DNA of 64,000 nt from Capnocytophaga sputigena (GTDB lineage: Bacteria; Bacteroidota; Bacteroidia; Flavobacteriales; Flavobacteriaceae). Positions within the stretch are counted from its first letter, which is position 1. Each line of letters opens with the position of its first letter. This document shows, piece by piece, positions 13,052 through 34,743 of the stretch. The translations under genes were made by a program, and so were the position numbers. The DNA is taken from positions 248,001-312,000 of the forward strand of contig NZ_UAVP01000007.1 of NCBI RefSeq assembly GCF_900446695.1, given 5' to 3'. Below the pieces are notes generated by a model. It was not told where the DNA came from. It made no database searches and saw nothing but the letters and a program-made list of their open reading frames with translations.

Positions 13052-13070
13052 GAGGTAAGAAATAAGAGAT

Positions 13071-13110
13071 AAAAAAACAGAGGCTACTCATTAGTAACCT
13101 CTGTTTTTTT
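13071..13110 (+). terminator. Rho-independent terminator after rmlB
   Basis: A 12-bp stem with one mismatch (ACAGAGGCTACT / AGTAACCTCTGT) has a CATT loop and is flanked by A7 on the left and T7 on the right. It can also act on leftward transcripts. Confidence 0.8.
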
Positions 13111-13152
13111 ATTCGTCATTCGTCATTCGTCACTCGTCATTCGTCATTTGTT
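13111..13152. repeat. 7-nt tandem repeat (ATTCGTC), 6 units
   Basis: ATTCGTC occurs three times, then ACTCGTC, ATTCGTC and ATTTGTT in perfect 7-nt register. The tract lies between the terminator and the stop codon of ftsQ (minus strand), which it touches. Confidence 0.85.
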
Positions 13153-13853
13153 TATCGTCTACACACCACTTGGTTCATATATTTTAGATTTACGACGCTG
13201 TATTCGTTCAGTTTGTTAGTTTTTTCTAACTGTTTATAGAAGGCTTTGAGATTAGCTTTCTTAAGCGCTTCGTCTTCAAACTTGCCAAAAACAACTTTAA
13301 AAGTAGGCACACGCATCAAAAATTCGTATTCGCCATTAGGTTTTACCAATACTTCAGTGATATTCTCAGCCATCCATTGGTCGTTTTGTATAAACTGCAT
13401 CAGTGCGTAGGAGGCTTGCCAATACTGCTCGGTATTACCTCTAAGTACAGGCACTCGCGCCGAGTAAGAACTTGAGAGTGGCATCTTCTTTCCTTGGGTA
13501 TCCATATAGTACACTCCCGCTCCGTCGTACACACGAGCGATAGGTTCTCGCTGTTTAATTTTAGCATTTAGAGTGCCATCAATAGTGCAAAACACTTCCG
13601 ATTTCTCAATCATCACATTGTTGTCTAAGAGCTTTTCAATTTCATTTAGCCGAAGAAGCCCCATAGGGTGTTGTGCTTGAGGATCTTTGAAGATAGTGCG
13701 GCGTATAGCCTCATCGGTAACGTACATATTCTCATCCTGATGGTCTACCACCACCTCTTTCACTACACGCATCTTGTTGCGCCCCGATGCAAATATTTGT
13801 ATGCAAAAGGGCAAAAAGATGATTACAAGTATTTTTAGTATCTTTTTTATCAT
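13152..13853 (-). CDS. ftsQ: Cell division protein FtsQ-like
   Basis: The 233-aa protein has one N-terminal transmembrane anchor (about residues 4-22). A periplasmic part follows with a POTRA-like beta-rich segment (NEIEKLLDNNVMIEKSEVFCTIDGTLNAKIKQREPIARVY) and the C-terminal VVNLKYMNQVVCRR typical of Bacteroidota FtsQ. FtsQ connects early and late divisome proteins at the septum. It usually lies between murC and ftsA in the dcw cluster; here it is downstream of era, 37 kb from rsmH-ftsL-ftsI-murE, and probably in an operon with era. Confidence 0.8.
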   Translation of the reverse strand: MIKKILKILVIIFLPFCIQIFASGRNKMRVVKEVVVDHQDENMYVTDEAIRRTIFKDPQAQHPMGLLRLNEIEKLLDNNVMIEKSEVFCTIDGTLNAKIKQREPIARVYDGAGVYYMDTQGKKMPLSSSYSARVPVLRGNTEQYWQASYALMQFIQNDQWMAENITEVLVKPNGEYEFLMRVPTFKVVFGKFEDEALKKANLKAFYKQLEKTNKLNEYSVVNLKYMNQVVCRR

Positions 13854-13892
13854 AACATAATCGACAGATTAACAAATCGGCAAATCAATAAA

Positions 13893-14774
13893 TCAATTAG
13901 TATCGTAGCCAAAACGCCTCAATTGTCGCACATTGCTACGCCAGTCTTTATTTACTTTTACAAAGAGCTCTAAGTGTATTTGTTTGCCAAAAAACTTCTC
14001 TAAATCAGTGCGAGCTTCCACACCTACCCGTTTTAAGGCTTCTCCTTTATGCCCTATGATGATGCCCTTTTGGCTTTCGCGCTCTACCATTATCACCGAG
14101 CGAATGTGGATAATCGTCTCGCTATCGGCAAAACTTTCAGTCTCTACTTCTACTGAATAGGGGATTTCCTTCTTGTAGTGCAATAGAATTTTCTCACGTA
14201 TAATTTCATTTACAAAAAAACGCTCTGGTTTATCGGTGAGTTGGTCTTTAGGGAAGAACGCAGGCGACTCGGGCAAAAGTTCTATAATGCGGTTGAACAC
14301 TACCTCTGTCTGGAAGTTGCGCAAAGCCGAAATAGGAAAAATTTCGGCACGAGGCACTTTTTCCTTCCAATAAGCTACTTGTTCTTCCAATGTACTTTGG
14401 TCGGAAGTATCCACTTTGTTGATGAGCAACAACACAGGAACTTCCAGTTTATTGATGCGATTAAAAAAAACTTCATCTTTCAGTTCTTTTTCGCCTATTT
14501 CTACCATATAGATGAGAATGTCAGCATCTTCAAAAGCACTTTTCACAAAGTCCATCATCGAGGCTTGTAAGGCGTATGAGGGTTTGATAATCCCAGGAGT
14601 GTCCGAAAAAACTACCTGAAAATCATCACCACTTACGATCCCAAAAATGCGGTGTCGTGTAGTTTGTGCTTTAGAGGTGATAATAGAAAGTTTTTCGCCT
14701 ACAAAGGCGTTCATAAGGGTAGATTTCCCTACATTAGGGTTCCCTATAATATTTACAAATCCAGCTTTATGCAT
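13893..14774 (-). CDS. era: GTPase Era
   Basis: The 293-aa ribosome-assembly GTPase acts in 30S maturation near the 16S 3' end. G1 is GNPNVGKST (residues 12-20), G3 is DTPG and G4 is NKVD. The C-terminal KH domain has the RNA-binding loop GIIIGHKGEALKRVG. Length is normal. ftsQ follows after 39 bp of AT-rich repeat-like spacer, and a small secreted protein gene lies just upstream on the same strand. Confidence 0.95.
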   Translation of the reverse strand: MHKAGFVNIIGNPNVGKSTLMNAFVGEKLSIITSKAQTTRHRIFGIVSGDDFQVVFSDTPGIIKPSYALQASMMDFVKSAFEDADILIYMVEIGEKELKDEVFFNRINKLEVPVLLLINKVDTSDQSTLEEQVAYWKEKVPRAEIFPISALRNFQTEVVFNRIIELLPESPAFFPKDQLTDKPERFFVNEIIREKILLHYKKEIPYSVEVETESFADSETIIHIRSVIMVERESQKGIIIGHKGEALKRVGVEARTDLEKFFGKQIHLELFVKVNKDWRSNVRQLRRFGYDTN

Positions 14775-20337: not shown

Positions 20338-20955
20338 ATGAATTATCTAAAAGAAATACAAACCCTTAAAACCGAGCTGGATATTCCTCTGCAGAAAGCC
20401 AAAACCCTATTAGAGCAAACAGCAGGCGATATCCCCGCCGCCATAGCCCTCTATCACCAAGAAAATATAACCACTATAATGGCAGAAACCGAGTGCGAGT
20501 ATTGGGAAGCCGAAAGCGTATACAAGCGATTCAACTACAATGTCGAAAAAGCCGTAAAACACATTTTTAGCACTTCATTAACTATAAGTGTTGAAGATAA
20601 AAGAGATACTAGCGAAAGAGGTATGGGCTACCTCGTCAGTGCCTTAGATACCGATTTGAACAATGTTTCCAAGCGCTCTATCTTCATCCCAATAGAAGAT
20701 TTTGATCAATATCTTTTAGAAGATTTCAAGTCCGTATTTCCCCTATACCAACCTCAATGGAATAAAATAGAACCCCATTTCAATTGTACAACCAGCAATG
20801 TCTTCGACCCTACTCTGTGCCAAAAAATCATCACACAACTGCGCCAACGTACATTTACCGATGATAAAGTAAAGATTTTTATACAGAAAATTATCGCCGA
20901 TGTAGAAGAAAAACTCCCCACCTGCGGCTATATAGAGGTCTATGGGAATATATAA
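20338..20955 (+). CDS. Hypothetical protein with UBA-like N-terminus
   Basis: The 205-aa protein has two consecutive short three-helix patterns near residues 12-40 and 43-75 (PLQKAKTLLEQTAGDIPAAIALYH; CEYWEAESVYKRFNYNVEKAVKHIF). These resemble the UBA-like fold also seen at the start of EF-Ts. The rest is unrecognised. Its end overlaps or abuts the next gene, so they are co-transcribed. A protein-binding role is likely; anything more is speculation. Confidence 0.55.
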   Translation: MNYLKEIQTLKTELDIPLQKAKTLLEQTAGDIPAAIALYHQENITTIMAETECEYWEAESVYKRFNYNVEKAVKHIFSTSLTISVEDKRDTSERGMGYLVSALDTDLNNVSKRSIFIPIEDFDQYLLEDFKSVFPLYQPQWNKIEPHFNCTTSNVFDPTLCQKIITQLRQRTFTDDKVKIFIQKIIADVEEKLPTCGYIEVYGNI

Positions 20956-20965
20956 AAATAAACCA

Positions 20966-22315
20966 ATGAAAGAACAACTCCACCGCATTCAGCAAAAGCT
21001 TGCCCAAGCCAAAGCCGCTGATAAAAACTTAGACGTATTTGGTGCCGATGCTCACCAGTACCACCTCAACCCTCCCGTAAGCGAGGCGGAAGTCCTTGCT
21101 TTTGAGAAGAAATATGGCGTACAACTCCCCAAATGCTATCGTGCCTTTATGCTTACTATTGGCGATGCCAAAGCTAAAAAATCAGACTTTATAGCAGGAC
21201 CTTATTTCGGTTTGTACGCCTTTGGAACTTCTGTAGATAGCCTACTCTACGAAAAAATAGAAACCTACCTCAAAGCGCCTTGCAACCTTTCTCCTGATAT
21301 GACTCAAGAAGAATGGGAAACGCTATCTGATCCACTATTGTCCTCTGAGGAAGAGGAAGAAGAAGACGATGATAAGTATTTTGCCGAACGAGCAAAAGTA
21401 TTTGGCGGACTCTTGCCTCTCGGAAGTCAGGGCTGTACCTATGAACACGCCTTGGTGCTCAATGGCAAATATGCCGGTCGCGTAGTAAATGTTGATTTAG
21501 ACCTCGCGCAACCCAAATTTGCTTTCGAAACGAACTTCTTAGATTGGTACGAACGCTACCTCGATGAGGTCATTTCGGGGCAACTTATAGACGACCGTCC
21601 TACTTGGTTTGGCTACCATCGTGGCGAACCCGCTGAGGTGCTCCTCAATGAATATGAACACACTACCGACCGCAAAACTCAAACCGACTGCCTCGAGGGG
21701 GTATATCATAAAAAACCACCTTTAGAACCTACACTATTAGACAAGATAGAAAAGCTCATTGCCTTAGATAATGAAGATAGAACCTTCTTAATTGAAATTC
21801 TTAGCCAATCCTCTTATGAGCGAGCCAAACCTTACTTGCAAGATTTGGTAAACAAAGATCCTAAAAAGGTATTTCAGTTCGTATGGTGGTATGCAAAAGA
21901 CCATTGTGCCGACTGGGTGTCTGTTGTAAAAGAGCTATTGCCTACCATTACCGACGAAAGAACCTTTGATTTTGCTACCTACCTCCTTACGGAAGGAGAT
22001 GACAATTTCGAGGAAGTGATCCTGCCCTTCACCGATGATGAGAATCCTCAAATACGTAGCACTGCCTACTATACACTCGGCAAAAGCAAGAAGAAAGAAC
22101 AATACCTCGATACCTTTATCAAAGGGCTACAAGAGACCGATACCGGTGTCCTTTGCACAGTTATGCAAGCCCTTTCTGGGGTGGAAGACAAACGCTTATT
22201 GCCCTATTACAAACAGATAGCCAAACGTTTCCCTGAAGAGAAAGACTATGTCCTCTCTAACTTAGAACACCGCTTAGCTTCTTTTGGTCTCACCATTGAA
22301 GAAGCAAGAAAATAA
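20966..22315 (+). CDS. SMI1/KNR4 domain fused to HEAT-like repeats
   Basis: The N-terminal half (to about residue 200) is an SMI1/KNR4 domain: PPVSEAEVLAFEKKYGVQLPKCYRAFMLTIGDA, then GGLLPLGSQGCTYEHALVLNGKYAGRVVNVD. An acidic stretch (EEEEEEDDD) interrupts it near residue 125. The second half carries HEAT-like repeats (ENPQIRSTAYYTLGKSKKKEQYLDTFIKGLQETD). I chose ATG 20966, which follows the previous stop; an ATG at 20942 overlaps the previous gene. SUKH-HEAT fusions suit an immunity or scaffold role. Confidence 0.75.
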   Translation: MKEQLHRIQQKLAQAKAADKNLDVFGADAHQYHLNPPVSEAEVLAFEKKYGVQLPKCYRAFMLTIGDAKAKKSDFIAGPYFGLYAFGTSVDSLLYEKIETYLKAPCNLSPDMTQEEWETLSDPLLSSEEEEEEDDDKYFAERAKVFGGLLPLGSQGCTYEHALVLNGKYAGRVVNVDLDLAQPKFAFETNFLDWYERYLDEVISGQLIDDRPTWFGYHRGEPAEVLLNEYEHTTDRKTQTDCLEGVYHKKPPLEPTLLDKIEKLIALDNEDRTFLIEILSQSSYERAKPYLQDLVNKDPKKVFQFVWWYAKDHCADWVSVVKELLPTITDERTFDFATYLLTEGDDNFEEVILPFTDDENPQIRSTAYYTLGKSKKKEQYLDTFIKGLQETDTGVLCTVMQALSGVEDKRLLPYYKQIAKRFPEEKDYVLSNLEHRLASFGLTIEEARK

Positions 22316-22319
22316 AAAG

Positions 22320-22517
22320 ATGCAACTAAAAAAGACCATAGAAAACCTTTGGATTACTAAACTCCTCGTTGAAGGACTTAACAAAGCCTTTGCCTATAAC
22401 GAGCACTTGGGTTGCTTTTTGATGATAACTATTTTCTGTATTATCTATGTGCTAATATTCCCTATAATGTTAGTGGCATTACCAATTCTTGGGTTAGTGA
22501 ATTTGTTTAGGAAATAA
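22320..22517 (+). CDS. Small membrane protein (65 aa), first of a pair
   Basis: One long hydrophobic segment (about residues 33-58) is preceded by a soluble helix. The protein ends ALPILGLVNLFRK, nearly the same ending as its downstream neighbour (GLPILGLVNLFKK). The start is ATG 22320, 2 bp after the previous stop. Function unknown. Confidence 0.55.
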   Translation: MQLKKTIENLWITKLLVEGLNKAFAYNEHLGCFLMITIFCIIYVLIFPIMLVALPILGLVNLFRK

Positions 22518-22527
22518 ATAGTGAAGA

Positions 22528-22731
22528 ATGAACCTAAATAGAATAATACATTCAAGGCTCTTAAATACCACTATTGATAAAGTAATCAAAATCAATGCCT
22601 ACAACCCATTATTAGGTTTAGTTGTAATAACAATAGCTCTTTTTGTTTTCTTTATACTCGTAATCCTTTCAATAATAGTAGGATTACCTATACTTGGCTT
22701 AGTGAATTTGTTTAAAAAATTGATAAAATAA
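22528..22731 (+). CDS. Small membrane protein (67 aa), second of a pair
   Basis: It begins 10 bp after the first small membrane gene and shares a hydrophobic helix and the LPILGLVNLFKK ending. The two are probably a tandem duplication. They could be membrane immunity proteins or small membrane partners of the adjacent genes; no direct evidence. Confidence 0.55.
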   Translation: MNLNRIIHSRLLNTTIDKVIKINAYNPLLGLVVITIALFVFFILVILSIIVGLPILGLVNLFKKLIK

Positions 22732-22734
22732 AAT

Positions 22735-23640
22735 ATGGAAATACAACATTTGTTGGGCAGACCTATCCATTCTCCCGAAATAAAAGAATTTTTTGCAAAA
22801 TATCATTTACCGCAAAACCCTAATCCTGAATATGATGCTTACGGCAACTTGTTTTGGGTACCAGTTAATAATGAAGAAAAGACCATTCGCTGCCTCTTTA
22901 CTGGGTATGTGAGATATGCTCCCGCTTATGGAGAGCCTATTGGTAATTATAACAAGGAAAAAGACCAACTTATTTTGCATCAAATCACCATTGATTCTGA
23001 GAATGCACCCGATGGAAAAATTTCTGATATAAACCTGCCTTTTGGATTGAACATTGGCGATGATAAAACAACCATTGAACAGAAAATAGGCAAGAAGCTT
23101 ACGCGTAAAGAAGTGAGTGATTATGGTTCTACTTATGATGTTTTATTTGAGGAATTTAGCTTGTTAGTGGCTCTGAATCCTCAGGAACAACTGGACAGGC
23201 TAATGTTATTCAAATTAGAACTCTATGAAAAGAAACGCATCCGCCTAAAAGCCCTCCTCAAATCACAAAACAAAAACATAGACCCTAATCGTATTCCTGA
23301 AATACAAGCCTTTCTCTCCGAAATCCCTATCCCTCAATGGCGCCAGCGTATGGCTGAGGGCGATGATATGTTTTCAGAAGAAAGCATCACAGCCGTAGAA
23401 ACAGCCCTTACGGAATATGTGCAAACACTTTGTGAAGCGGTGCAAAAGAAAAATGCGACTACCGTTTATAACTCTATGGGCAAATTGGTAAAGAAAATCA
23501 ATAAAATCAATGACAAATACGGACTTATAGAAACAATGGAGCGTGAAGAACTTTGCGAGTGGCTCAATACACTCATTCGCAAAACAGGTTTAGAATTAGC
23601 CGATAATGTAGATATCACCGATGAATACCGCGAGTGGTAA
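22735..23640 (+). CDS. Hypothetical protein in the immunity-like array
   Basis: The 301-aa soluble protein has a beta-rich N-terminal part (about 1-160; ITIDSENAPDGKISDINLPFGLNIGDDKTTIEQKIGKKL), then a helical C-terminal part (about 180-300). In the N-terminal part the pattern 'LPFGL--GD--TTIEQKIGKK' resembles unassigned immunity-type domains. It starts 3 bp after the preceding small gene. No known family could be assigned. Confidence 0.55.
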   Translation: MEIQHLLGRPIHSPEIKEFFAKYHLPQNPNPEYDAYGNLFWVPVNNEEKTIRCLFTGYVRYAPAYGEPIGNYNKEKDQLILHQITIDSENAPDGKISDINLPFGLNIGDDKTTIEQKIGKKLTRKEVSDYGSTYDVLFEEFSLLVALNPQEQLDRLMLFKLELYEKKRIRLKALLKSQNKNIDPNRIPEIQAFLSEIPIPQWRQRMAEGDDMFSEESITAVETALTEYVQTLCEAVQKKNATTVYNSMGKLVKKINKINDKYGLIETMEREELCEWLNTLIRKTGLELADNVDITDEYREW

Positions 23641-23654
23641 AAAATACAGAAACA

Positions 23655-24122
23655 ATGAAAAAATCATTAGAAAACCTTTTAGAAAAACAAGGTATTGCCT
23701 TACTCAATACCCTCTCTAAAGAAGAGCGACGCGCTCGTACCGAAACTATCAAAGCGCGCTATCGCGAGGCAGGCTATGACGATTTGCCTCACGAACTCGT
23801 TACCTTCCTTACTGTATTCGACGGCAAGGATATCAAGCGCAACGACGGCTATATGGCTTTTATATACTCACAAAACCTCCCTACTCGCCAAGAGATGCTA
23901 TACTATGAATCAGACGCAGGGGTTACCGAGCTTATTCCCTTTGGCGATGTCAATGCCGATGAAGTTCTCTGTATCGATAGTGTAGGTAGTGTATGGGGTG
24001 TGCTTGACCTTTCCTCTTGGACGCCTCGCAAAACCTATCACTATTTCTATGGGGGCGACCTCTATACCGCCCTTGAAAATATCATCAAAGGCAAAGTAGA
24101 AGAAACAATTATACGACCTTAA
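23655..24122 (+). CDS. SMI1/KNR4 (SUKH) family protein
   Basis: From ATG 23655 the 155-aa protein shows a compact SUKH domain: RYREAGYDDLPHELVTFLTVFDGKDI near the N-terminus and ELIPFGDVNADEVLCIDSVGSVWGVLDL in the middle. A GTG seven codons upstream overlaps the previous gene and is less likely. It is the third SUKH-type gene in about 6 kb. Predicted cytosolic immunity protein; cognate toxin unknown. Confidence 0.75.
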   Translation: MKKSLENLLEKQGIALLNTLSKEERRARTETIKARYREAGYDDLPHELVTFLTVFDGKDIKRNDGYMAFIYSQNLPTRQEMLYYESDAGVTELIPFGDVNADEVLCIDSVGSVWGVLDLSSWTPRKTYHYFYGGDLYTALENIIKGKVEETIIRP

Positions 24123-24134
24123 AAACACAATACT

Positions 24135-24944
24135 ATGGCAATAGACGGCGTAAAAATCATAGATAGCGATAGTGGCTACGACATTTACAACAACATCACC
24201 GAACGCTATAAAGATGGTGAGGATGTAGAGAAAATCAGACAAGATTGGCTCAATGAGGAAGTTAATTTCTGTATTGATGAATTGTATACTGAAATCTATT
24301 GGACGGCTTTTGCGTATTCCCTTTGGAAAATAGGCTATCCAAAAGATGAAGTGCGCACCAAAGCTTTGCAACTCATAGAACGAGGAGCAACACCGCTCTG
24401 GAATGAGATAGACAGCAAAGCCCAAAAACAACGACAGAAAGCACTTGATAAGCTCAAACTACAACTGCAAGAGGATAACCCCAAACCTCTTGTGAAACCT
24501 ACCCTAAAGAAACCTAAAACACCTTATTTTGAAGTAGGAGATGTGTTGGCGGTAACCATTGGTGAACGTTATGGTATCTGCTTTGTCTCAGCTGTAGAGG
24601 TTACTCCCCGAAAAATAGAGTATCATCTTGCTCCTACTCGATATTTAGCCCCTACTTATCCTACAATGACCGACTTTCTGCAAAGCGAACTCGCCTGTGG
24701 GAAAAACAACCAAGATTTCGCCCTCAAAACCGATTGCTGGTTCAATCATAAAGATTTAGGAGTGATACTGCCTTCCCTTAAAAAAATAGGGATAATACAG
24801 TTGAAACCTTATAGTTTATGGACACTCTCACCCGCTCATAGCATAGAGGATATCTATGAAAAAATCATAGAAGACAAAAAATATTTTGGAGGGAAACTCA
24901 AGAAAGTAGAGGAGTTGATAGACACTATTAAAGAGCAATTATAA
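24135..24944 (+). CDS. Hypothetical protein with Imm26-like C-terminal segment
   Basis: The 269-aa protein has a helical N-terminal part (about 1-115). A beta-rich segment starts PYFEVGDVLAVTIGERYGICFVSAVEV (about 132-160), a pattern recalling immunity family Imm26 (a GDvhav...yg-g-V start). The match is weak. The gene lies 12 bp after a SUKH gene and continues the run. Confidence 0.5.
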   Translation: MAIDGVKIIDSDSGYDIYNNITERYKDGEDVEKIRQDWLNEEVNFCIDELYTEIYWTAFAYSLWKIGYPKDEVRTKALQLIERGATPLWNEIDSKAQKQRQKALDKLKLQLQEDNPKPLVKPTLKKPKTPYFEVGDVLAVTIGERYGICFVSAVEVTPRKIEYHLAPTRYLAPTYPTMTDFLQSELACGKNNQDFALKTDCWFNHKDLGVILPSLKKIGIIQLKPYSLWTLSPAHSIEDIYEKIIEDKKYFGGKLKKVEELIDTIKEQL

Positions 24945-24964
24945 AACCTTAAAAAGAAGTTATT

Positions 24965-25498
24965 ATGCACTTATATCCTTCTATATCTTCAGAGTTAGAA
25001 CTGGCAGGGAAACTTATAATTCCTTTGTTAGTATTTCTCTTAATTGCTTTCGTGGCAAAAAAAGTAGAGAATAAATCTATTTTCTCTCTACTTGAAATCT
25101 TATTAGCATTGGGCATAATGGTCTATAATATAGCTGTAGGAATCTTTTTATTCCGGTGTGTGCGACCAATAATTCCCTATTGGGAGTTAGATCTTATAGA
25201 ATGGTATCCTGTACCTCTATTTTTTGCGTTTTTCATTTTAGTATTTAACATCCTTTTCTTGCTCAGGTATAGAAATAAACTCTATGAAAATGTATTGTTT
25301 GTGCTGAGTTTAGGATTGCTGTTATTTACGCTCTATGAGTTTGTAGTTACCAAACCTTTTAAGCAACAAGATGGAGCTGAATTCTTATTAGATGAAACTC
25401 TTTTAGAACACGCTCCACTACTAAATTTTATAATTAATATAGCAGTAAGTTTGTGTTTTATACTATTTATTATATTCAAAAGAAAATCAAAACTATGA
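24965..25498 (+). CDS. Membrane protein with about five predicted helices
   Basis: The 177-aa protein is highly hydrophobic, with helices near residues 15-35, 42-65, 80-100, 105-125 and 150-170. No soluble domain or recognised family is present. Its stop overlaps the next start by four bases (ATGA), indicating translational coupling within the array. Function unknown. Confidence 0.55.
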   Translation: MHLYPSISSELELAGKLIIPLLVFLLIAFVAKKVENKSIFSLLEILLALGIMVYNIAVGIFLFRCVRPIIPYWELDLIEWYPVPLFFAFFILVFNILFLLRYRNKLYENVLFVLSLGLLLFTLYEFVVTKPFKQQDGAEFLLDETLLEHAPLLNFIINIAVSLCFILFIIFKRKSKL

Positions 25499-25995
25499 AA
25501 AACACCCTTTGGCTTTATAAAAATCCTTATCAGATAGAGATAAGAGAAAAGGAAGCACACCCACCACAAGTAGCGGTTTATCTCTATCAGACAGAAGAGG
25601 AGATTAAAAACATAGTCCTCACGGGAGGAGGGAGCGTGAGCAGTCTGTGGGAGAAAAGTGCGCTGTTAGACGGTGATAGGTTGCTCATAGCTTGTGGCAA
25701 TGAGGTATTTTGTATCCTCTTGCCTACATTAGAACTCCTTTGGCATACGCAGGTGGATATGGCTACTTGCTTTGAAATAGTCGCCTATCAAGATGATTAC
25801 ATTACCCACGGCGAGGTGGAGATATCGCGCCTCAATAAGCAGGGAGAAATCCTCTGGCAGTTCAGTGGCAAGGATATTTTTGTCTCACCCATAGAGCGCA
25901 CTCCCGCTTTTAAGACAACCCCACAAGGTATTGATTTAGTAGATTTTAATTATGAGGAATACCACATTGATTACAATGGGAAATTAATGAAGTAA
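25495..25995 (+). CDS. Hypothetical soluble protein, translationally coupled
   Basis: From ATG 25495 the 166-aa product is beta-rich (LYKNPYQIEIREKE, QVAVYLYQTEEEIKNIVLTGGG, EVFCILLPTLELLWHTQVDMATCFEI), resembling a two-blade WD/PQQ-like sheet, with no signal peptide. An earlier GTG at 25453 lies within the preceding gene and is rejected because of the ATGA overlap. It is the last gene of the array. Function unknown. Confidence 0.55.
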   Translation: MKNTLWLYKNPYQIEIREKEAHPPQVAVYLYQTEEEIKNIVLTGGGSVSSLWEKSALLDGDRLLIACGNEVFCILLPTLELLWHTQVDMATCFEIVAYQDDYITHGEVEISRLNKQGEILWQFSGKDIFVSPIERTPAFKTTPQGIDLVDFNYEEYHIDYNGKLMK

Positions 25996-26262: not shown

Positions 26263-29200
26263 ATGATGCATAATAACCTTATAGATAATTCTTCTGATGC
26301 ACTCTCTATGCAGCGATATCTCAAGAGATGCATCTTGGCTGAAGGGGTTGATAAAATTCAGATTGCAACAGGATATTGGGATATTCCAGGGATGACTCTT
26401 GTTCTCAATGAACTTAAAAGTTTCTTAGAACGAGAGGAAACTTCATTTGAACTTCTTATTGGTAAAGATCCTTATGTTTATACTTCAATGATTAAAAATC
26501 CTAAGTACAAAGATGCTACTTATCCTTATGATTTTATACGCACAGATATACACGATCTTGAAATAAAAGAGGAATATGAAGATGTTATCAAGCTATTACT
26601 CAAATATGGCGGAAGTAGCAAAATTCAGATACGCATATACACTAAAAATTCAAAAGAAGAAGATGAATTTTTACACTCTAAATGCTATATTTTTTCAGGA
26701 TCTTCACATTCTTTTGGTATTGTAGGAAGTTCGAACTTTACAAAGAAGGGATTGTTAGGAAATGCAGAATTAAATTATCTTGAAACTGACCCTGCACGTA
26801 TTACAGCTCGACCTACACACGGCTCCAATGCAAAAGGACATATTTGTTGGTTTGAAGAAAAGTGGAAACTTTCAAAAGAATGGACACAAGAGTTTTTGGA
26901 GCAAATTATTAAGAAATCGCCTATCTATATTGATATACAAAAAAATACTGCGCAAGAATTCACTCCCTACGAACAATATATCAAATTACTTCAACTGCAA
27001 TTTGGGGATGTTGTAGATAAGAACTTAGGACAAGAAATAGAGAGCTATCTTCCTCCTAAAGTACATAAATTGGACTATCAAATAGAAGCCGTAAAACGCT
27101 GTATCAGTATTATGCACGAACACGGAGGCTTTATGTTGGCAGATGTTGTGGGACTTGGTAAGACAATTATCGGAACCCTCATTATCAAACGTTTCCTTTC
27201 GGTACCAGAAAATGATGGGAGAGAACGTAAAGTTTTAATCATCACCCCCCCTGCCATTCAGTCGGGATGGAAGAAAACAATTGCTATGTTTGACAAAGAT
27301 TCTGATGAGAAGATCGCTCCGTATATCGACTTCATAACTACAGGACGTATCGCGAATGTAACCGAGGAGGATGATTGGGAAGAAAATGATGATGATAGTG
27401 CTGATTCTGGAGAATTTGTTGGAACCCTCCAAGATAAGAATTATGGATTTATCATTATTGACGAAAGCCATAAATTCCGCAATAGTACTACTTTTATGTA
27501 CCGATCACTTGATGAATTGATCATAAAGATTGGTTCCAACACGGGGGTATATCCATACATTGGACTGCTGTCGGCTACCCCTCAGAATAACCGCCCTAAC
27601 GACTTGAAAAATCAGATATACCTCTTTGAACGCAATCGTAATGATAGCACTCTAAAAAAAGCAGAGAGCGGTAATATTGAAAAATTCTTCGCTGATGTAA
27701 ATCGTGAATATGATCTACTGATAAACAATAGAAGTAATATTACTGAAGAGGAACGTAAACAACGTTTAGAGGCTGTTTCAAAGAAATTACGTGACTGTGT
27801 GCTAAGTGATATATTAGAACGCAGAACAAGAACGGATGTCGAGAAGTATTACAAAGAAGATATGGAGTCTCAAGGTTTGGTATTTCCAAAAATTGTAGGT
27901 CCTAATATTCTTAAATACATAATGGACGATGAATTGGCGCAACTATTCTCAGATACTATGACAATTATTGCACCAAATCAGAATGAAAGGTTACTTACGA
28001 ACGAATGGCTCAAGTATTCTCGTTATCGCGCCATTGAATATTTTGTTGATCCAGCTAATGAACAAAAACATACTGGTCGAGGCAACCGTGGTGTTAGTGA
28101 TGTGGCAAGACAGATGGCTACTATTATGCAAATTCTTCTTGTAAAGCGCCTTGAAAGTTCGTTCACGGCTTTTACTCAATCATTATTCAATTTGCGTCGT
28201 TATACTGAGAATATGATTAGGATGTGGGAAAACAACACCATCTTTGTTTGTCCACAAATTAATGTAAACCAAGAACTCGACTATGAAGCAAAAACTAAGA
28301 AGCGAGGAGAAAAAGTTTCTTTTAATGATTGTGTGGAAGAAATTAGAGTCAAAATTCAGAAACTCACAAACCAAGGCCGAAATGAGAGAGGGCAGAATGC
28401 CGAATATAAACGCAATGATTTTAAAGAGGAATACTATAGCCAATTAAAAGAAGACTACAACCTCATTTCTAACCTCTGCGATCGTTGGGCTAAGAACTCT
28501 CAAGACCCGAAGTTCGATGCTTTCAAGGAAAATATAAAACCTGAATTATTCAATCCAGAAAAAAACACTTCTGGAAAGTTGGTTATTTTCTCAGAGGCAA
28601 TTGATACCGTTCAAGCTCTTGCAAGAGCTGTTAAGGCAAAAGGCTATAAACCACTTGTTATTACAGCTGCCAATCGCGATGAAATGGAAAAAACAATTGA
28701 AGAAAATTTTGATGCTAACTACGAAGGAGAATGGAAGGATGAATACAATGTGATCATCACAACCGAAGTTTTGGCAGAAGGGGTAAACCTTCACCGTGCC
28801 AATGTTATTCTGAACTATGATACCCCTTGGAATTCCACTCGCCTGATGCAACGTATAGGGCGTGTAAATCGTATCGGTAGCAAAGAACCTTTTGTTTATG
28901 TTTACAACTTTATGCCAAGTGCCGAAGGTGATGCTCAAATAGAGTTAGTACGAAAGGCACATACTAAACTGCAATCATTCCATATTCTATTTGGTGAGGA
29001 CAGCAAGATTTTCTCCGATGAAGAAAGCGTTGTACATTATGATATAGCAAAGGCTATTGAAGGAGAGGAGTCGCCAATGCAGCAATATGTATACGAACTG
29101 AAACAATACAAAGAAACACATCCTGAGCGTTATAAGCAAATAGAGCAGACTAATGAGGGGTGGGAAATAGCGCAGGCAACAAATGGCACGGCATACTTTA

Positions 29201-29718
29201 TTGTGAAAGCCCCTCGATCGGCAAAACTTGCCATTAGCATACACACAGCCGAAGATAGTCAATCAAAAGCCCAAATAATTTCTTTACTTGAACTGCTTGA
29301 AGCGATGCGAGTGGATGAGAGTGCCCAGCGTATTGCATTGCCAGATAATTGGCATCAACTCTCAGCTGATGCCATAAAAACATATAATCAATATTTTGTC
29401 CACATCAACAAGTCAAGAGCTGGCGACAAGCGTACTCAAGCTCTTCAGATAATTGTAAAGCTATATAATAATGATACAATTTCTGAAAAATCGAAAGAAC
29501 TCCTAAAAAATACAAGAAAACTTGTTGATAAAGGAAGCCTCGATATCATCAAAAAAATATTAGCTATCGGACAGGAATTGGAAGAAAAAAAACCAAGACT
29601 ATTCAATATTGAACAACAAGATATTGACGAAATTCTCAAGCGGGAAATCGGTAAACTCGTCACCAATGTAGAAAGTAAACAAGGAGAAGCATCAATTATA
29701 TTAGCAACCATTAAGTAA
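26263..29718 (+). CDS. PLD-type nuclease fused to SNF2-family helicase (restriction/translocase subunit)
   Basis: The 1151-aa protein has an N-terminal phospholipase-D-like nuclease domain (about 1-180) with the HKD-type core H138-x-K140 and a GSSNFTKKG turn. The SF2/SNF2 ATPase core has DVVGLGKT with Walker A Lys300, the DESH box at 400-403, and motif VI QRIGRVNR at 863-870 in the second RecA domain. The C-terminal about 250 residues are unassigned. A methyltransferase begins 10 bp downstream, so this is probably the restriction or effector arm of a DNA-modification system. The pairing recalls class 1 DISARM (SNF2-like DrmD plus adenine methylase DrmMI), but drmA, drmB and drmE are absent and the PLD domain is fused. 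Nuclease activity is inferred. Confidence 0.85.
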   Translation: MMHNNLIDNSSDALSMQRYLKRCILAEGVDKIQIATGYWDIPGMTLVLNELKSFLEREETSFELLIGKDPYVYTSMIKNPKYKDATYPYDFIRTDIHDLEIKEEYEDVIKLLLKYGGSSKIQIRIYTKNSKEEDEFLHSKCYIFSGSSHSFGIVGSSNFTKKGLLGNAELNYLETDPARITARPTHGSNAKGHICWFEEKWKLSKEWTQEFLEQIIKKSPIYIDIQKNTAQEFTPYEQYIKLLQLQFGDVVDKNLGQEIESYLPPKVHKLDYQIEAVKRCISIMHEHGGFMLADVVGLGKTIIGTLIIKRFLSVPENDGRERKVLIITPPAIQSGWKKTIAMFDKDSDEKIAPYIDFITTGRIANVTEEDDWEENDDDSADSGEFVGTLQDKNYGFIIIDESHKFRNSTTFMYRSLDELIIKIGSNTGVYPYIGLLSATPQNNRPNDLKNQIYLFERNRNDSTLKKAESGNIEKFFADVNREYDLLINNRSNITEEERKQRLEAVSKKLRDCVLSDILERRTRTDVEKYYKEDMESQGLVFPKIVGPNILKYIMDDELAQLFSDTMTIIAPNQNERLLTNEWLKYSRYRAIEYFVDPANEQKHTGRGNRGVSDVARQMATIMQILLVKRLESSFTAFTQSLFNLRRYTENMIRMWENNTIFVCPQINVNQELDYEAKTKKRGEKVSFNDCVEEIRVKIQKLTNQGRNERGQNAEYKRNDFKEEYYSQLKEDYNLISNLCDRWAKNSQDPKFDAFKENIKPELFNPEKNTSGKLVIFSEAIDTVQALARAVKAKGYKPLVITAANRDEMEKTIEENFDANYEGEWKDEYNVIITTEVLAEGVNLHRANVILNYDTPWNSTRLMQRIGRVNRIGSKEPFVYVYNFMPSAEGDAQIELVRKAHTKLQSFHILFGEDSKIFSDEESVVHYDIAKAIEGEESPMQQYVYELKQYKETHPERYKQIEQTNEGWEIAQATNGTAYFIVKAPRSAKLAISIHTAEDSQSKAQIISLLELLEAMRVDESAQRIALPDNWHQLSADAIKTYNQYFVHINKSRAGDKRTQALQIIVKLYNNDTISEKSKELLKNTRKLVDKGSLDIIKKILAIGQELEEKKPRLFNIEQQDIDEILKREIGKLVTNVESKQGEASIILATIK

Positions 29719-29728
29719 AAACACCCCT

Positions 29729-32700
29729 ATGAATAAGGAGTTATTAAAAGAGTATTTAAGCAATCGTTATCAAGGCTGGGAATCATTTCTCAATAACATT
29801 ATTTTTCCCATTTTTGGCAAAGATGATTTTGAGGATGGTTACGAAGCAGAACTTTTGGATAGTCAGCCTGAACGCAGAAAATTAGCAACAATCACAGGAA
29901 TACGCAGTATCAAGCAAGTAGGAAAGATATATGTAGGCGTTGAACCATTGCAAATTTTCGATGTGACAGTCAGCGATCGGGTGATGATGGAGCGCAATCG
30001 CGTAAACATCCAACGGCTTATTCGCACAGTGATGGATCAGTTCTCTTGTGCTTTTATGCTATTTCATTACGAAGATGACACACGTTGGGATTGGCGTTTT
30101 ACTTATTGTCGAAAAAGTGCTAAAAAGGAAGAAACTACCGATAACAAACGATTTACTTTCTTACTTGGTCCTGGACAGTCTTGCCGTACAGCAGCTGATA
30201 ACTTTATAGCTCTTTACGAGAAAAGAGAATCCCTTGAAATTAAAAATATAGAGGAAGCTTTCAACGTTGAGGCACTCTCCCAAGAGTTTTTTGGTAAGTA
30301 TAAAGCACAGTACGAGGCATTTGTAAATTATATGGTTGACCCAGCCAACGGAATGCGTCAGGACTTTATCGATATGCACTTTGACCACAGTAGTATGACT
30401 GCCGACAAGATTCGTGATCGTGAAGAAAAGCCTATTCGTGACTATGTAAAGAAACTTCTTGGGCGCATTGTATTCTTACACTTTCTCCAAAAGAAAGGAT
30501 GGCTTGGTGTTCCTGCTGGCAAGGAATGGGGTGAAGGCGACCGCGATTTTATGCTTAAGCTTTTTGAAAATGCTTCTCCAGAACAAAAAGAAAACTTCCT
30601 TGATGAGGTGTTAGAAGGCTTGTTTGCAAATGGTTTAGATACTAACCGATCGGACAACGGAGATGTATATAATACAAGAGTGCAGGGCTTTTGCAATTGC
30701 AGAATCCCCTATTTGAATGGAGGATTGTTTGAACGTGATGCGTTAGACGAAAAAACAAGTCGCTTTCCTGCTAAATACTTTGAAAGTTTGCTTACAATGC
30801 TCTCCCAATATAACTTTACCATTGATGAAAACGACCCGAACGATGCAGAAGTGGGAGTTGATCCCGAAATGCTTGGACGCATCTTTGAGAATCTTTTGGA
30901 GGACAATAAGGATAAAGGGGCTTTCTACACACCTAAGGAAATAGTGCAATATATGTGTCGTGAAAGCCTGATTGCTTATCTGCAAACCGACCAAAAGGAA
31001 GATGATAAAGAACGTATTCGCCAGTTTGTTACCACACATGATGTGGACTTACTTGGAGAGTTGAAAGAAGAGATCGAACAAAAACTTATCGATGTTAAAA
31101 TATGTGACCCAGCTATTGGTTCAGGAGCTTTCCCAATGGGATTGCTGCGTGAATTATTTTTCTGCCGTTCGGCTATCGAACCTAATATTGTGGAGAAAGC
31201 GGCTGATATCAAACGACATATCATACAGAATAATATCTACGGCGTTGATATTGAACGAGGTGCAGTAGAGATTGCCCGATTGCGTTTTTGGCTTGCTTTG
31301 ATTGTAGACGAAAAATCACCAGAGGTGCTACCTAACCTTGATTTTAAGATTATGCAAGGAAATTCGTTACTTGAGAGTTATGAAGGTATAGATTTGAGTA
31401 AATTAGCAACAATGTCGGATGTACAAATATATGAACCACAGCTTAATTTGTTTGGAGAGATGGAAGCCCCTCAGCCGAAAGTAATTTATACTCAAACCGA
31501 TAAACTTAAAGAGTTTCAAGCAAATTTAAAACGATATTTTGAACCTATTACTCACGAAGAACGGACGCGCCTCCGCAATTCTATCGACGACTATGTAAGG
31601 CATACGATTACCTATACACTTGAAGTACATAAACAATCTGAAGAGAGGAAGAAAGAACAGATATGTTTGTCTACTACGTTTACTGAAAAACAAAAGAAAG
31701 CCATTGCTGAGGCAGAAGCAAATATGGTTCATCTCAACGAGATGATAGAGAATGTTCAAAATATGGAATTGATCAACTCCGATTTTTTCCTATGGCATAC
31801 TTGGTTCCACGATGTTTTTTCTCGCCCCTCTAAAGAGGGCTTCGACATTGTCATCGGTAACCCACCATATGGAGCGAAGATCGATAACAACCAAAAAACT
31901 ATCATTAAGAGAAATTATACTGTTGCCAATACGAGTAATGGTATCAAAGGTTCAACTGACACCTTTTGTGTATTCATAGAGAAAGGTTTTAACTTGCTCA
32001 GAAAGGATGGAACCCTAACTTATATTATACCTATGTCTTTCACTTCAAGCGATGCTATGGGGCAGGTTCATCGCTTGTTATTTGGAAATTGTGACACCCT
32101 AAGGGTTTCTTCTTTCTCTAATCGCCCAAAACAAATTTTTGAGGATGCTGGATTACGTGTGTCAATCATCTCGTTTACCAGATCAGAAACTCCTATGAAG
32201 CATCTCCTTACAACTAAAATGATGAGAAGAAGAAAAGAAGAGTCTATGAAGCTGTTGATGGACAATCTGCAATTCGCAGAATCTTTACCATACGTCCTGC
32301 CAGCAAGACTACCAAAAGTTGGTTCAAATGATGAAATGCAAGTGTTAAATAAAATTTTAGAATTACCCCACAGAGTCAAGTCTTTTTTTGTCAATGATGG
32401 TAAACCTTTGTATTACAGAGCAGCAGGAGGAAGATACTTTAATGTTGTTACCGATTATAGTACATTCACATCAGCAGAAAAGCAACTAAATTTAAGGTAT
32501 CATAGACAAATTGGATTATGTCTTTCTTCAACATTATTTTGGTTTTATCAGCAAGTCTATACTGATGGATTAAATTTAAAACAATCAGAAATAAAGAACT
32601 TCCCTCTTCCTAATTTTGACAAGATGCCGAAAGAAACACTTTCAGAACTCAACAAATTGTATAGCCGTTATCTTGAAGATATTGAGACTAAGGCAAACCG

Positions 32701-32881
32701 ACGTATTGCCTCTGGTGATTCCAGCTACAATGTTGATTCATTCAAGGAATACAAGATTGTACGATCTAAAAGAATCATTGATGAGATAGATGATTATATC
32801 TGCCCACTATACGGCTTGACTCAGGAAGAAACGGACTTCATAAAGAACTATGAATTGGAGTTCAGGTTGGCTGGAGAATAA
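29729..32881 (+). CDS. Eco57I-like N6-adenine DNA methyltransferase with invertible C-terminal half
   Basis: The 1050-aa methyltransferase has an N-terminal helical part, then GAFYTPKEIVQYM, motif I DPAIGSGAF (Asp460) for S-adenosylmethionine binding, and catalytic motif IV NPPY (711-714), the signature of N6-adenine enzymes. The last 336 residues form the target-recognition half, with a Lys-rich C-terminus. A 49-bp segment coding SRPSKEGFDIVIGNPPY (31822-31870) is repeated inverted at 34030-34078. Inversion would replace everything after Tyr714 with the silent copy. The gene follows the PLD-helicase by 10 bp and is predicted to protect host DNA at, and set, the recognition sequence. Confidence 0.9.
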   Translation: MNKELLKEYLSNRYQGWESFLNNIIFPIFGKDDFEDGYEAELLDSQPERRKLATITGIRSIKQVGKIYVGVEPLQIFDVTVSDRVMMERNRVNIQRLIRTVMDQFSCAFMLFHYEDDTRWDWRFTYCRKSAKKEETTDNKRFTFLLGPGQSCRTAADNFIALYEKRESLEIKNIEEAFNVEALSQEFFGKYKAQYEAFVNYMVDPANGMRQDFIDMHFDHSSMTADKIRDREEKPIRDYVKKLLGRIVFLHFLQKKGWLGVPAGKEWGEGDRDFMLKLFENASPEQKENFLDEVLEGLFANGLDTNRSDNGDVYNTRVQGFCNCRIPYLNGGLFERDALDEKTSRFPAKYFESLLTMLSQYNFTIDENDPNDAEVGVDPEMLGRIFENLLEDNKDKGAFYTPKEIVQYMCRESLIAYLQTDQKEDDKERIRQFVTTHDVDLLGELKEEIEQKLIDVKICDPAIGSGAFPMGLLRELFFCRSAIEPNIVEKAADIKRHIIQNNIYGVDIERGAVEIARLRFWLALIVDEKSPEVLPNLDFKIMQGNSLLESYEGIDLSKLATMSDVQIYEPQLNLFGEMEAPQPKVIYTQTDKLKEFQANLKRYFEPITHEERTRLRNSIDDYVRHTITYTLEVHKQSEERKKEQICLSTTFTEKQKKAIAEAEANMVHLNEMIENVQNMELINSDFFLWHTWFHDVFSRPSKEGFDIVIGNPPYGAKIDNNQKTIIKRNYTVANTSNGIKGSTDTFCVFIEKGFNLLRKDGTLTYIIPMSFTSSDAMGQVHRLLFGNCDTLRVSSFSNRPKQIFEDAGLRVSIISFTRSETPMKHLLTTKMMRRRKEESMKLLMDNLQFAESLPYVLPARLPKVGSNDEMQVLNKILELPHRVKSFFVNDGKPLYYRAAGGRYFNVVTDYSTFTSAEKQLNLRYHRQIGLCLSSTLFWFYQQVYTDGLNLKQSEIKNFPLPNFDKMPKETLSELNKLYSRYLEDIETKANRRIASGDSSYNVDSFKEYKIVRSKRIIDEIDDYICPLYGLTQEETDFIKNYELEFRLAGE
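31822..31870 (+). repeat. 49-bp inverted repeat, left copy (methyltransferase inversion site)
   Basis: The segment is identical, base for base, to the reverse complement of 34030-34078. It contains CCCTCT-AA-AGAGGG (31826-31839), a palindromic pair of 6-bp half-sites around an asymmetric AA dinucleotide, the layout used by serine invertases of the Hin type. It codes for the linker plus motif IV, so exchange keeps the reading frame. Confidence 0.95.
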
Positions 32882-32895
32882 TATGGAAAGGGTAA

Positions 32896-34033
32896 TCAAA
32901 GCCCCTCCATATATTTCATTTCTTTATCTGATAAACCATAAATACTATATATTAATCTGTCAATTTTGTTTTCTTCTGAGGAAATGTCTTTTTCAATGTT
33001 ATCTCTCGTTAAGTCTAATATTTCTGTAACTAAGTTGGATATCTCATTCCTTTGTTCTTCGTTTGTCTGAGGAATAGGTATGTTCTCAATTTCTCGTGTT
33101 CCAATATTCAAATATCCCCCTGCCATTTTTATGGAATTATATAAAATGTTTATAGAGAAGGATACTAATTTGCTGTTGAGCAATCCTAACAAGAATCTTA
33201 ATTCATCTCCTAAAATAATGGTTGTTGATTTTCCTCCTAAAGTTTCACCTACATCATAGACTGCTTCAATTCGCGATGACATTCCCGCAACAATAAGTTT
33301 TTCGCTCATAGATTGGGACAATCGTCGTTCACTTATATTGTTAAGGTCTGATTGACTAACTCTTGGAAAATGGTATTTCCCTTTAATATATTGCATAGCC
33401 TTATAGCCCCATAATGATTTATATGGATCTATAGTTCCAGTATTGATAACTTTCAAAGAATCATCGGACTCTTTAGCATCATAAAGAACATTTTTTATCT
33501 CATATGCTTCTGCAACAGTTGCTGAACCAATAACATTCCACTCATCTCTTATTATAGATTTTGAGGCAAGGAATCTTTTGATAATGGAGAATTCAATCTC
33601 GCTTCTAAAAAACACATCCCAATACTCGCTTCCTATGATTTCTTGAAGGGAGACATTTTTTCGCTCTATTCTCTTGACTGTCTTCATAACGATGAAACGA
33701 CATGAATTATAGTCATTTGAGGCTAATGTCCTACGACCAACTATCGTACAAGGATAAACAGCTGCATTTATAAAAACAGGAAGTCTACTGTAGTCACGAA
33801 TTTCAATAATGTCATTTGCGACAATCTGTTCTCGCAATTTAGATGTGTATTTTGCTGCTATAAGTTTGTTTGGTAAGATAAAACTATATATTCCCTCAAA
33901 TGAACATAATTTGATACCCTTTTCGACGAAGATAACAAACATATCCCAATTTCCTCTAGCACAAGTGAAAATTTGGGAGTATTGCTTTCTTAATTCGGGC
34001 ATAATATTTGTCATTGTTTCTGAATCAATATAT
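32896..34033 (-). pseudogene. Silent alternative 3' half of the methyltransferase (invertible cassette)
   Basis: This is an open frame without its own promoter or true start. Reading leftwards from the right repeat it continues NPPY with IDSET, then the 372 codons from ATG 34014. Content is a methyltransferase C-terminal half: FVIFVEKGIKL and FILPNKLIAAKY aligned to the expressed copy's FCVFIEKGFNL and YIIPMSFTS, then the specificity-type ending IPIPQTNEEQRNEISNLVTEIL. The two cassettes share the framework but differ in the recognition part. After inversion it would complete a 1091-aa enzyme. It is a stored allele, not a dead gene. Confidence 0.9.
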
Positions 34034-34078
34034 GGTGGGTTACCGATGACAATGTCGAAGCCCTCTTTAGAGGGGCGA
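34030..34078 (-). repeat. 49-bp inverted repeat, right copy
   Basis: Perfect inverted partner of 31822-31870. The crossover core CCCTCT-TT-AGAGGG lies at 34061-34074. The recombinase gene ends 11 bp beyond, outside the invertible segment. Confidence 0.95.
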
Positions 34079-34089
34079 TCTCACAAGAA

Positions 34090-34743
34090 TCAATGGTATA
34101 TTCCATATTCTTTCCATCCTTCTTGTTGACAATTGATTGGGGTATGTAATCCTGTATATACGAGGTAACGATAGAAGGTTGTCTTTGATACTTTTAGTTT
34201 TTTAGTAATGATTTTTTTCTGCGTACCCTTTTCTAATTCTTTGACGATCCATTCGTGTTTCTCGGTACATTTTGGGTTGAGCCTACAGCGGAAACCTCTT
34301 TGTCTACCAAGTACCACCCCCTCTGCTTTTTTGCGAGCAAGTGCTTCTTTGGTGCGCTGACTGATAAGGTTGCGCTCAATCTCGGCTGATAGACCAAAAG
34401 CAAAAGCAAGCACTTTGCTCTGTATGTCATCTCCTAAGCGGTAATTGTCTTTAATAGTCCATACACGGCACTCTTTGGTCATACATATATTGAGAATTTC
34501 CATTATCATAAACAAGTTACGCCCTAACCGTGACAGTTCACTGCAAATGATAATATCTTCTTTGCCTACCTTTTTCAGTAACTTTCCCAATTGACGTTTG
34601 TTATAATTTTTGGTGCCGCTAATGGTTTCTTCAATCCAGTCGTCTATTAACAATCCTTTTTTCTCACAAAAGTTTGTAATTTCAAATCGCTGGTTCTCTA
34701 TTGTTTGTTTGTCACTACTCACCCGAATATATCCGTATATCAT
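34090..34743 (-). CDS. Serine recombinase (invertase/resolvase family), likely methyltransferase invertase
   Basis: The 217-aa protein has the resolvase start YIRVSSDKQT (catalytic Ser9), the SELSRLGRN loop, the EIERNLISQRTKEALARKKAEG helix, and a C-terminal helix-turn-helix (KKIITKKLKVSKTTFYRYL). Size fits small DNA invertases such as Hin and Pin. It lies 11 bp outside the right 49-bp repeat and reads away from uvrA towards the invertible segment. This strongly suggests that it catalyses the methyltransferase switch. Its gene begins 10 bp after the stop of the upstream carboxylase, so it may be partly read through from that gene. Confidence 0.9.
   Translation of the reverse strand: MIYGYIRVSSDKQTIENQRFEITNFCEKKGLLIDDWIEETISGTKNYNKRQLGKLLKKVGKEDIIICSELSRLGRNLFMIMEILNICMTKECRVWTIKDNYRLGDDIQSKVLAFAFGLSAEIERNLISQRTKEALARKKAEGVVLGRQRGFRCRLNPKCTEKHEWIVKELEKGTQKKIITKKLKVSKTTFYRYLVYTGLHTPINCQQEGWKEYGIYH

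Follow-up and report, generated by a model that had tools for sequence, protein, structure and literature searches.

A putative invertase-driven specificity switch at an Eco57I-like methyltransferase locus of Capnocytophaga sputigena

Known inversion systems and the Capnocytophaga locus

Switching by DNA inversion is known for hsdS genes and reportedly also for pglX and Type II systems. A locus of Capnocytophaga sputigena is described here in which the exchanged part would be the C-terminal half of a methyltransferase itself. It lies in a stretch of 64,000 nt of contig NZ_UAVP01000007.1 (the window; coordinates without a locus number refer to it). The locus comprises a gene for an Eco57I-like adenine methyltransferase, a gene for a PLD-SNF2 partner, a 2.2-kb segment between perfect inverted repeats and a gene for an Mpi-family invertase. 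Judged from the sequence, this is very probably an invertase-driven switch in which flipping of the segment between two coding sites replaces one recognition half by another. An invertible segment exchanging the recognition half had been proposed in the initial annotation, which made no mention of the invertase gene (34090-34743, minus strand). The proposal is now backed by this adjacent Mpi invertase, an inversion between two related loci (L026 and L028), the same halves in both states and homogenised repeats.

Several described systems are close. Ben-Assa in 2020 is said to have found invertible hsdS in Bacteroides fragilis, and Goldfarb in 2015 reportedly described inversions of BREX pglX. 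Milman, Yelin and Kishony reportedly predicted inversions in Type II restriction-modification genes in 2023, some of them confirmed with long reads. Excerpts of two papers describe invertible hsdS genes of Type I systems, for example in Streptococcus pneumoniae (PMC4948785, PMC7394358), and an excerpt of a third states that the recombinase may be encoded within the hsdS-type locus (PMC11868660). PglX is characterised, in an excerpt of PMC11341690, as a large gamma-class adenine methyltransferase with C-terminal recognition. According to an excerpt of PMC5903667, the Mpi of B. fragilis acts as master recombinase on at least thirteen regions, polysaccharide loci among them.

The proposed invertible segment of the window is bounded by repeat arms at 31822-31870 (plus strand) and 34030-34078 (minus strand). 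As annotated initially, they are complementary at 49/49 bases; the spacer is 2159 nt. The pair is the longest exact inverted repeat of the window, followed by one of 20 nt, and chance would give about 7e-20 perfect 49-nt pairs. The 49-mer, searched with up to 3 mismatches, has two copies in the 3.05-Mb genome, one per strand. Both arms are read in the same frame and code for R699-Y714 of the methyltransferase (RPSKEGFDIVIGNPPY), including the NPPY of motif IV. They are identical also at the third codon positions (9/9). In silico inversion kept the frame open and reproduced the annotated change from a 1050-aa to a 1091-aa enzyme. Each arm contains CCCTCTAAAGAGGG, a dyad with 6-bp arms around a central AA, at 31826-31839 (plus strand) and, located by sequence, at 34061-34074 (minus strand). 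It is the likely crossover site of the window's invertase and the equivalent of CGACCCTCAAA in relatives. Serine invertases have a 2-bp overlap, which the central AA fits. Of three genomic occurrences of the general site form CCCTCNAANGAGGG, two are in the window's repeats.

The invertase gene codes for 217 aa, and its stop codon is 11 bp outside the right repeat. The protein matches the Mpi family of serine DNA invertases (NCBIfam NF009949, 342.6 bits, cut-off 272; Pfam Resolvase, 117.8 bits) over its full length, at model positions 1-200 of 203. It would catalyse the inversion between the two sites. As a query in its own genome (E<=1e-20), it found one other gene, likewise beside a methyltransferase. 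It resembles the Mpi of B. fragilis in fitting the NCBIfam 'master DNA invertase Mpi family'; it differs in being a local gene, with proposed sites within coding sequence.

The methyltransferase (29729-32881, plus strand, 1050 aa) matches Pfam Eco57I (110 bits, cut-off 25.3), N6_Mtase and the PADLOC model REase_MTase_IIG (256 bits); the nuclease domain that a Type IIG enzyme carries in the same chain was not found by Pfam at E<=0.001. Its constant part 5' of the repeat (29729-31821, plus strand) contains DPAIGSGAF, which is presumably the S-adenosylmethionine-binding motif I; D460, A462, G464, S465 and G466 are invariant in 8/8 aligned enzymes. Together with the repeat, the constant part has 714 residues and is joinable to either of two C-terminal halves. 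One of these is joined to it and therefore called expressed, a term that is no measure of expression. This half (31871-32881, plus strand, 336 aa) contains, according to alignment and open reading frame (ORF), the rest of the methyltransferase domain and the recognition region. The silent half (32896-34029, minus strand, 377 aa) extends the open frame of the right repeat. It lies tail to tail behind the expressed half, cut off from the N-terminal part. It matches the tail of Eco57I and the TaqI-type specificity domain (Pfam TaqI_C, 29.7 bits, cut-off 26.5). The 377 codons counted agree with the annotated NPPY followed by IDSET and 372 more codons.

The two halves align over 115 columns, including 16 coded by the repeat, with 34% identity; a dissimilar middle follows, then a second, weak match near the end. 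Presumably, they share the end of the methyltransferase fold and differ in the recognition region. After NPPY, residues D744, F749, G761 and I766 (numbering of the first protein) are invariant in 8/8 aligned enzymes. Because these conserved methyltransferase positions lie 3' of NPPY in the swapped part, the whole catalytic core is not constant. The initial annotation, which placed the crossover just before motif IV and left the catalytic core constant, was partly wrong: the CCCTCTAAAGAGGG sites precede NPPY, but NPPY lies inside the repeat, and the four conserved residues swap. By alignment, the swapped unit comprises not just the recognition region but also the rest of the methyltransferase domain.

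The PLD-SNF2 helicase/nuclease-like partner (26263-29718, plus strand, 1151 aa) matches Pfam PLDc_2, SNF2-rel_dom and Helicase_C and the PADLOC model 'HKD+Snf2' (141 bits). Its ORF stops 10 bases 5' of the methyltransferase start, and the pair is operon-like. The annotated pairing of an Eco57I-like enzyme with a PLD-SNF2 protein is borne out by the Pfam matches.

Like Type I hsdS loci, the window has coding inverted repeats placed to swap target-recognition segments, with a silent copy adjacent. There, specificity resides in a separate subunit. Here, the exchanged segments are fused to the methyltransferase as its own C-terminal half, joined at motif IV, and an Mpi-family serine invertase is present. 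BREX pglX is similar in coding for a gamma-class type enzyme, and PglX/BrxX (8c45, E=3.9e-6) is the nearest solved structure to the whole enzyme by sequence. For the silent half it is M.TaqI (E=3.2e-5; residues 5-85, motif IV onward). The NCBIfam model BREX-1 PglX reaches 72 bits against a cut-off of 500, and the enzyme is paired with a PLD-SNF2 protein. Among neighbouring ORFs, four of which were scanned with Pfam, no BREX genes were recognised, with no search aimed at pglZ, brxC and others. The model of the DrmD helicase of DISARM class 1 scored 129.1 bits against a cut-off of 610. Unlike in Type ISP (LlaBIII), helicase and methyltransferase are two separate ORFs.

The cassette fits the class of Type II programmed inversions. 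It has the attributes of a gene-altering programmed inversion, namely in-frame inverted repeats inside a gene and an opposite partial copy, and both orientations occur in nature in the relatives L026 and L028. This cassette family may already have been listed by Milman and colleagues. It was not recognised in the titles and abstract starts of the searched literature; the full texts of the likeliest papers are outside that scope, so no claim of an unpublished family is made.

Natural inversion and the exchange point in relatives

A scan of a genome contig collection with the enzyme gave ten loci. Near-identical cassettes with three halves each are present in Bacteroides propionicigenes (L026) and Paraprevotella xylaniphila (L028). 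According to BLAST, their flanks are collinear (98.3% identity left, 91.3% right) and 10942-14322 is inverted (94.8%). Before the first repeat, 500/500 nt are identical. The segment aligns with 94.7% identity when inverted versus 54.2% uninverted. L026 has the order constant-A with B and C reversed, and L028 the order constant-C with B forward and A reversed. The alignments identify this difference as a single inversion between the outer sites.

The exchange is confined to a short stretch. The outer sites of both loci are identical over CGACCCTCAAA and then diverge into an A-type (AGAGGGCTTCG) and a C-type (TGGGGGCGG). In L026 the constant flank runs into A and the right flank into C; in L028 the pairing is the reverse, which gives four junctions. 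As the flanks have swapped between A-type and C-type, the exchange took place within the 11 bases of CGACCCTCAAA. Homologous recombination needs more than eleven identical bases, so the exchange was site-specific.

Halves recur in both states. The half expressed in L026 is silent in L028 (99.4% identity), and the half expressed in L053 is silent in L054 (97.4%). L053 and L054, as well as L020, belong to the genus of the window. The window's silent half has a relative (31.6% identity) that is expressed in L054. Halves with 46-50% identity to the window's expressed half were found in records of Selenomonadaceae, Selenomonadales and Spirochaetales (L031, L032 and L035). Their enzymes are without invertase and without long repeat, and diverge more in the N-terminal part. 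Among 20 genomes of the genus, only its own contained the whole stretch, so a strain comparison of the same cassette is not possible. One of the genomes (G669) has the invertase end at 91% identity, and the rest of the cassette is not there. Phage records searched with the methyltransferase gave no match at E<=1e-30.

Cassette pieces in other assemblies were considered as a sign of mixed orientations. Three circular 'plasmids' of Prevotella nigrescens DSM 13386 (NZ_CP133468.1, NZ_CP133467.1 and NZ_CP133466.1, with 2630, 2697 and 2697 bp; L048, L049 and L062) are 100% identical to cassette pieces in the 567,798-bp record of FDAARGOS_1486 and are cut inside the repeats. They are probably assembly fragments, not plasmids. 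The cut positions also fit a short-read graph stopped by the repeat, so the pieces are only suggestive of mixed orientations. Two contigs of metagenome-assembled genomes (L029 and L034) stop inside the first repeat. L034 is a k141 contig with k longer than the repeat, consistent with a fork between two orientations, and likewise only suggestive. The repeat pattern found no further cassette piece in the genomes of L029 and L034; an invertase search found no gene in the genome of L034 and one gene, 67% identical, in that of L029. The three-half cassette of P. nigrescens carries, between its two silent halves, a coding sequence (CDS) annotated as 'ATP-binding protein' (L047:13832-15091).

Repeats, invertases and competing explanations

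Repeat copies within a locus agree at a mean of 97.9% over 42 nt (n=8 loci), versus 76.3% between loci (n=112 pairs, highest 97.6%). Counted at third codon positions (nine codons), agreement averages 8.1/9 within and 4.9/9 between loci. The comparison indicates that each genome keeps its repeat copies alike, an effect expected of repeated exchange.

Long repeats coincide with the invertase. With a threshold of >=34 nt, a perfect repeat was present in 8/9 loci with an Mpi-family gene and in 0/15 without (longest 18 nt) in a table of 24 loci (p=1.2e-5). The window, L053 and L054 are the finding itself or were found via a query holding repeats and invertase; after their removal, the counts are 5/6 and 0/15 (p=0.0003). 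Not in the table are L024, which is close to a contig edge, L029 and L034, whose contigs stop within the repeat, as well as L052 and L055-L061, to which the invertase had led. Three loci with little downstream sequence were counted: L016 (2147 nt), L032 (2800 nt) and L033 (787 nt). An independent set of viral contigs, scanned with the methyltransferase alignment, gave 25 loci. All three loci with an invertase had long repeats (101, 118 and 261 nt), versus 0/22 without (longest 17 nt; p=0.0004). In this set, L082 has an upstream resolvase that is 25.7% identical and was counted as without invertase, and L092 has N bases after the repeat. For loci found by methyltransferase sequence alone, pooled over both sets, long perfect repeats are present in 8/9 with and 0/37 without an invertase.

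Some repeats are located further downstream in the methyltransferase. In the viral contigs L084 (11288-11548/12838-13098) and L087 (11461-11578/13042-13159), the repeat lies more than 120 residues C-terminal of NPPY and codes for a motif resembling SWVILSPIEQSIKKKIEAVGT(PLKDWD). L055 has the same kind of repeat in a diverged form (81%; 5518-5730/7104-7316), and the third viral-contig locus, L092, starts like the repeat of L084 and L087 before the N bases. All are methyltransferases with an Mpi gene. One kind of invertase thus appears to be associated with repeats at two coding places, motif IV or, by position, the lead into the recognition domain.

Two more Mpi loci of the genus were noted. 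At L052:7867-9169, an Mpi gene 94% identical to the window's invertase gene lies next to a second Mpi gene; no methyltransferase was recognised, and by eye the region resembles a mobile element. At L057:10192-13957, an Mpi gene is near a 732-aa NPPx protein and a 530-aa protein, which from their sequences could be a methyltransferase/specificity pair.

Several points weigh against the switch. The inversion was seen between lineages and not within one culture, as L026 and L028 come from different species. A clear crossover dyad is confined to the clade of the window; repeats of other invertase clades gave no convincing one. Four of the 13 Mpi-family loci of the genus (L052, L056, L058 and L059) have no methyltransferase-like ORF in the stretch inspected, which in L058 and L059 is cut short, as the invertase there lies near a contig end. 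L021, a paralogous locus with SNF2, methyltransferase and Mpi genes in the same genome (C1:228000-247000), is the exception among invertase loci. It has no perfect repeat over 17 nt, and its second half is decayed to about 135 aa. Close to where its methyltransferase frame ends, there is a 39-nt inverted repeat with 85% identity. As L021 is decayed with an invertase present, such cassettes can freeze. Finally, the AlphaFold models are poor, with a mean predicted local distance difference test (pLDDT) score of 57.6 for the expressed enzyme (8 sequences) and 47.7 for the silent half (12 sequences), which leaves alignment as the sole basis for placing the recognition region. Foldseek with the expressed-enzyme model had BrxX/PglX, CamA, MmeI, DrdV and LlaBIII among the first 50 matches listed (TM-scores of about 0.2-0.47); this model-based list carries no weight beyond its agreement with the sequence search.

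The decay of L021, with its imperfect repeat, would also suit a segment that was once invertible and is now frozen, a relic repeat of which only the expressed half matters. This is unlikely for the window: both halves are open over their full length, the repeats agree at 49/49 bases and at 9/9 third codon positions, and the invertase matches its family over the full length. The invertase may instead act mainly elsewhere, with the methyltransferase as a by-target of a master invertase of surface genes, as the at least thirteen regions inverted by B. fragilis Mpi (PMC5903667, in excerpt) would suggest. This is likewise unlikely. Two of the three genomic CCCTCNAANGAGGG sites are the window's repeats, the 49-mer occurs only there even with up to 3 mismatches, and the other invertase-like gene of the genome (E<=1e-20) is also beside a methyltransferase; diverged sites may exist elsewhere.

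A different role would fall to the silent half if it were itself translated as a specificity subunit in trans, besides or instead of swapping. Its ORF has an internal ATG at 34014, and comparable halves are annotated as CDS in P. nigrescens. An ORF from 34014 begins after motif IV, thus without motifs I and IV, and the silent ORF runs against the operon; for such a subunit, a frame-keeping repeat would be needless. This role is highly improbable. The smallest chance of all is given to a recent duplication of a methyltransferase fragment, with any inversion being functionless and due to homologous recombination. An identity of 49 nt could allow rare general recombination, but the halves beyond the repeat are not recent copies (34% over 115 columns), the exchanging sites of L026 and L028 share only 11 identical bp, and repeats track the invertase across loci.

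Upstream of the cassette (20942-25995), a SUKH/SMI1-KNR4 plus HEAT protein is encoded; three other ORFs scanned there had no Pfam match. By eye, this cluster resembles an immunity-gene array.

Proposed mechanism and meaning

The invertase-driven switch would operate as follows. The operon-like pair of PLD-SNF2 and methyltransferase genes starts outside the segment, where the promoter would also be located. The Mpi-family invertase would recombine the two CCCTCTAAAGAGGG sites, which lie immediately 5' of motif IV within the coding repeat. The flip of the 2.2-kb segment would keep the frame, and the 1050-aa enzyme would become a 1091-aa enzyme with the other half. Since it is the methyltransferase that recognises the target, a different motif should be methylated after a flip. 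The restricted motif would also change if the PLD-SNF2 protein acts through the methyltransferase. Repeats, frames and invertase gene are seen directly, as are inversion and exchange point in relatives; present flipping in this strain, this invertase as its catalyst, a changed methylation motif and a retargeting shared with the PLD-SNF2 protein are inferred. As read from its genes and repeats, the locus is best explained as a restriction-modification-like system of two genes that carries a self-contained switch of specificity.

A broader proposal has about an even chance of being right. The cassette may represent a widespread, horizontally moving 'shufflon' for single-chain methyltransferases, with a local Mpi-type invertase, a site at motif IV or at the recognition-domain lead, and two or three halves. 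Each flip would retarget methylation and PLD-SNF2 attack at once, and the cell would have to survive a sudden change of its protected sites.

The switch would extend inversion-based specificity switching from separate subunits to one-chain methyltransferases with their own invertase. In relatives, the exchange is pinned to a short site beside a catalytic coding motif. The halves look like natural interchangeable modules and could aid the engineering of methyltransferase specificity. Two questions become testable through this locus: whether a single population carries several methylomes simultaneously, and by what means a cell withstands a one-step change of target in a restriction-capable system.

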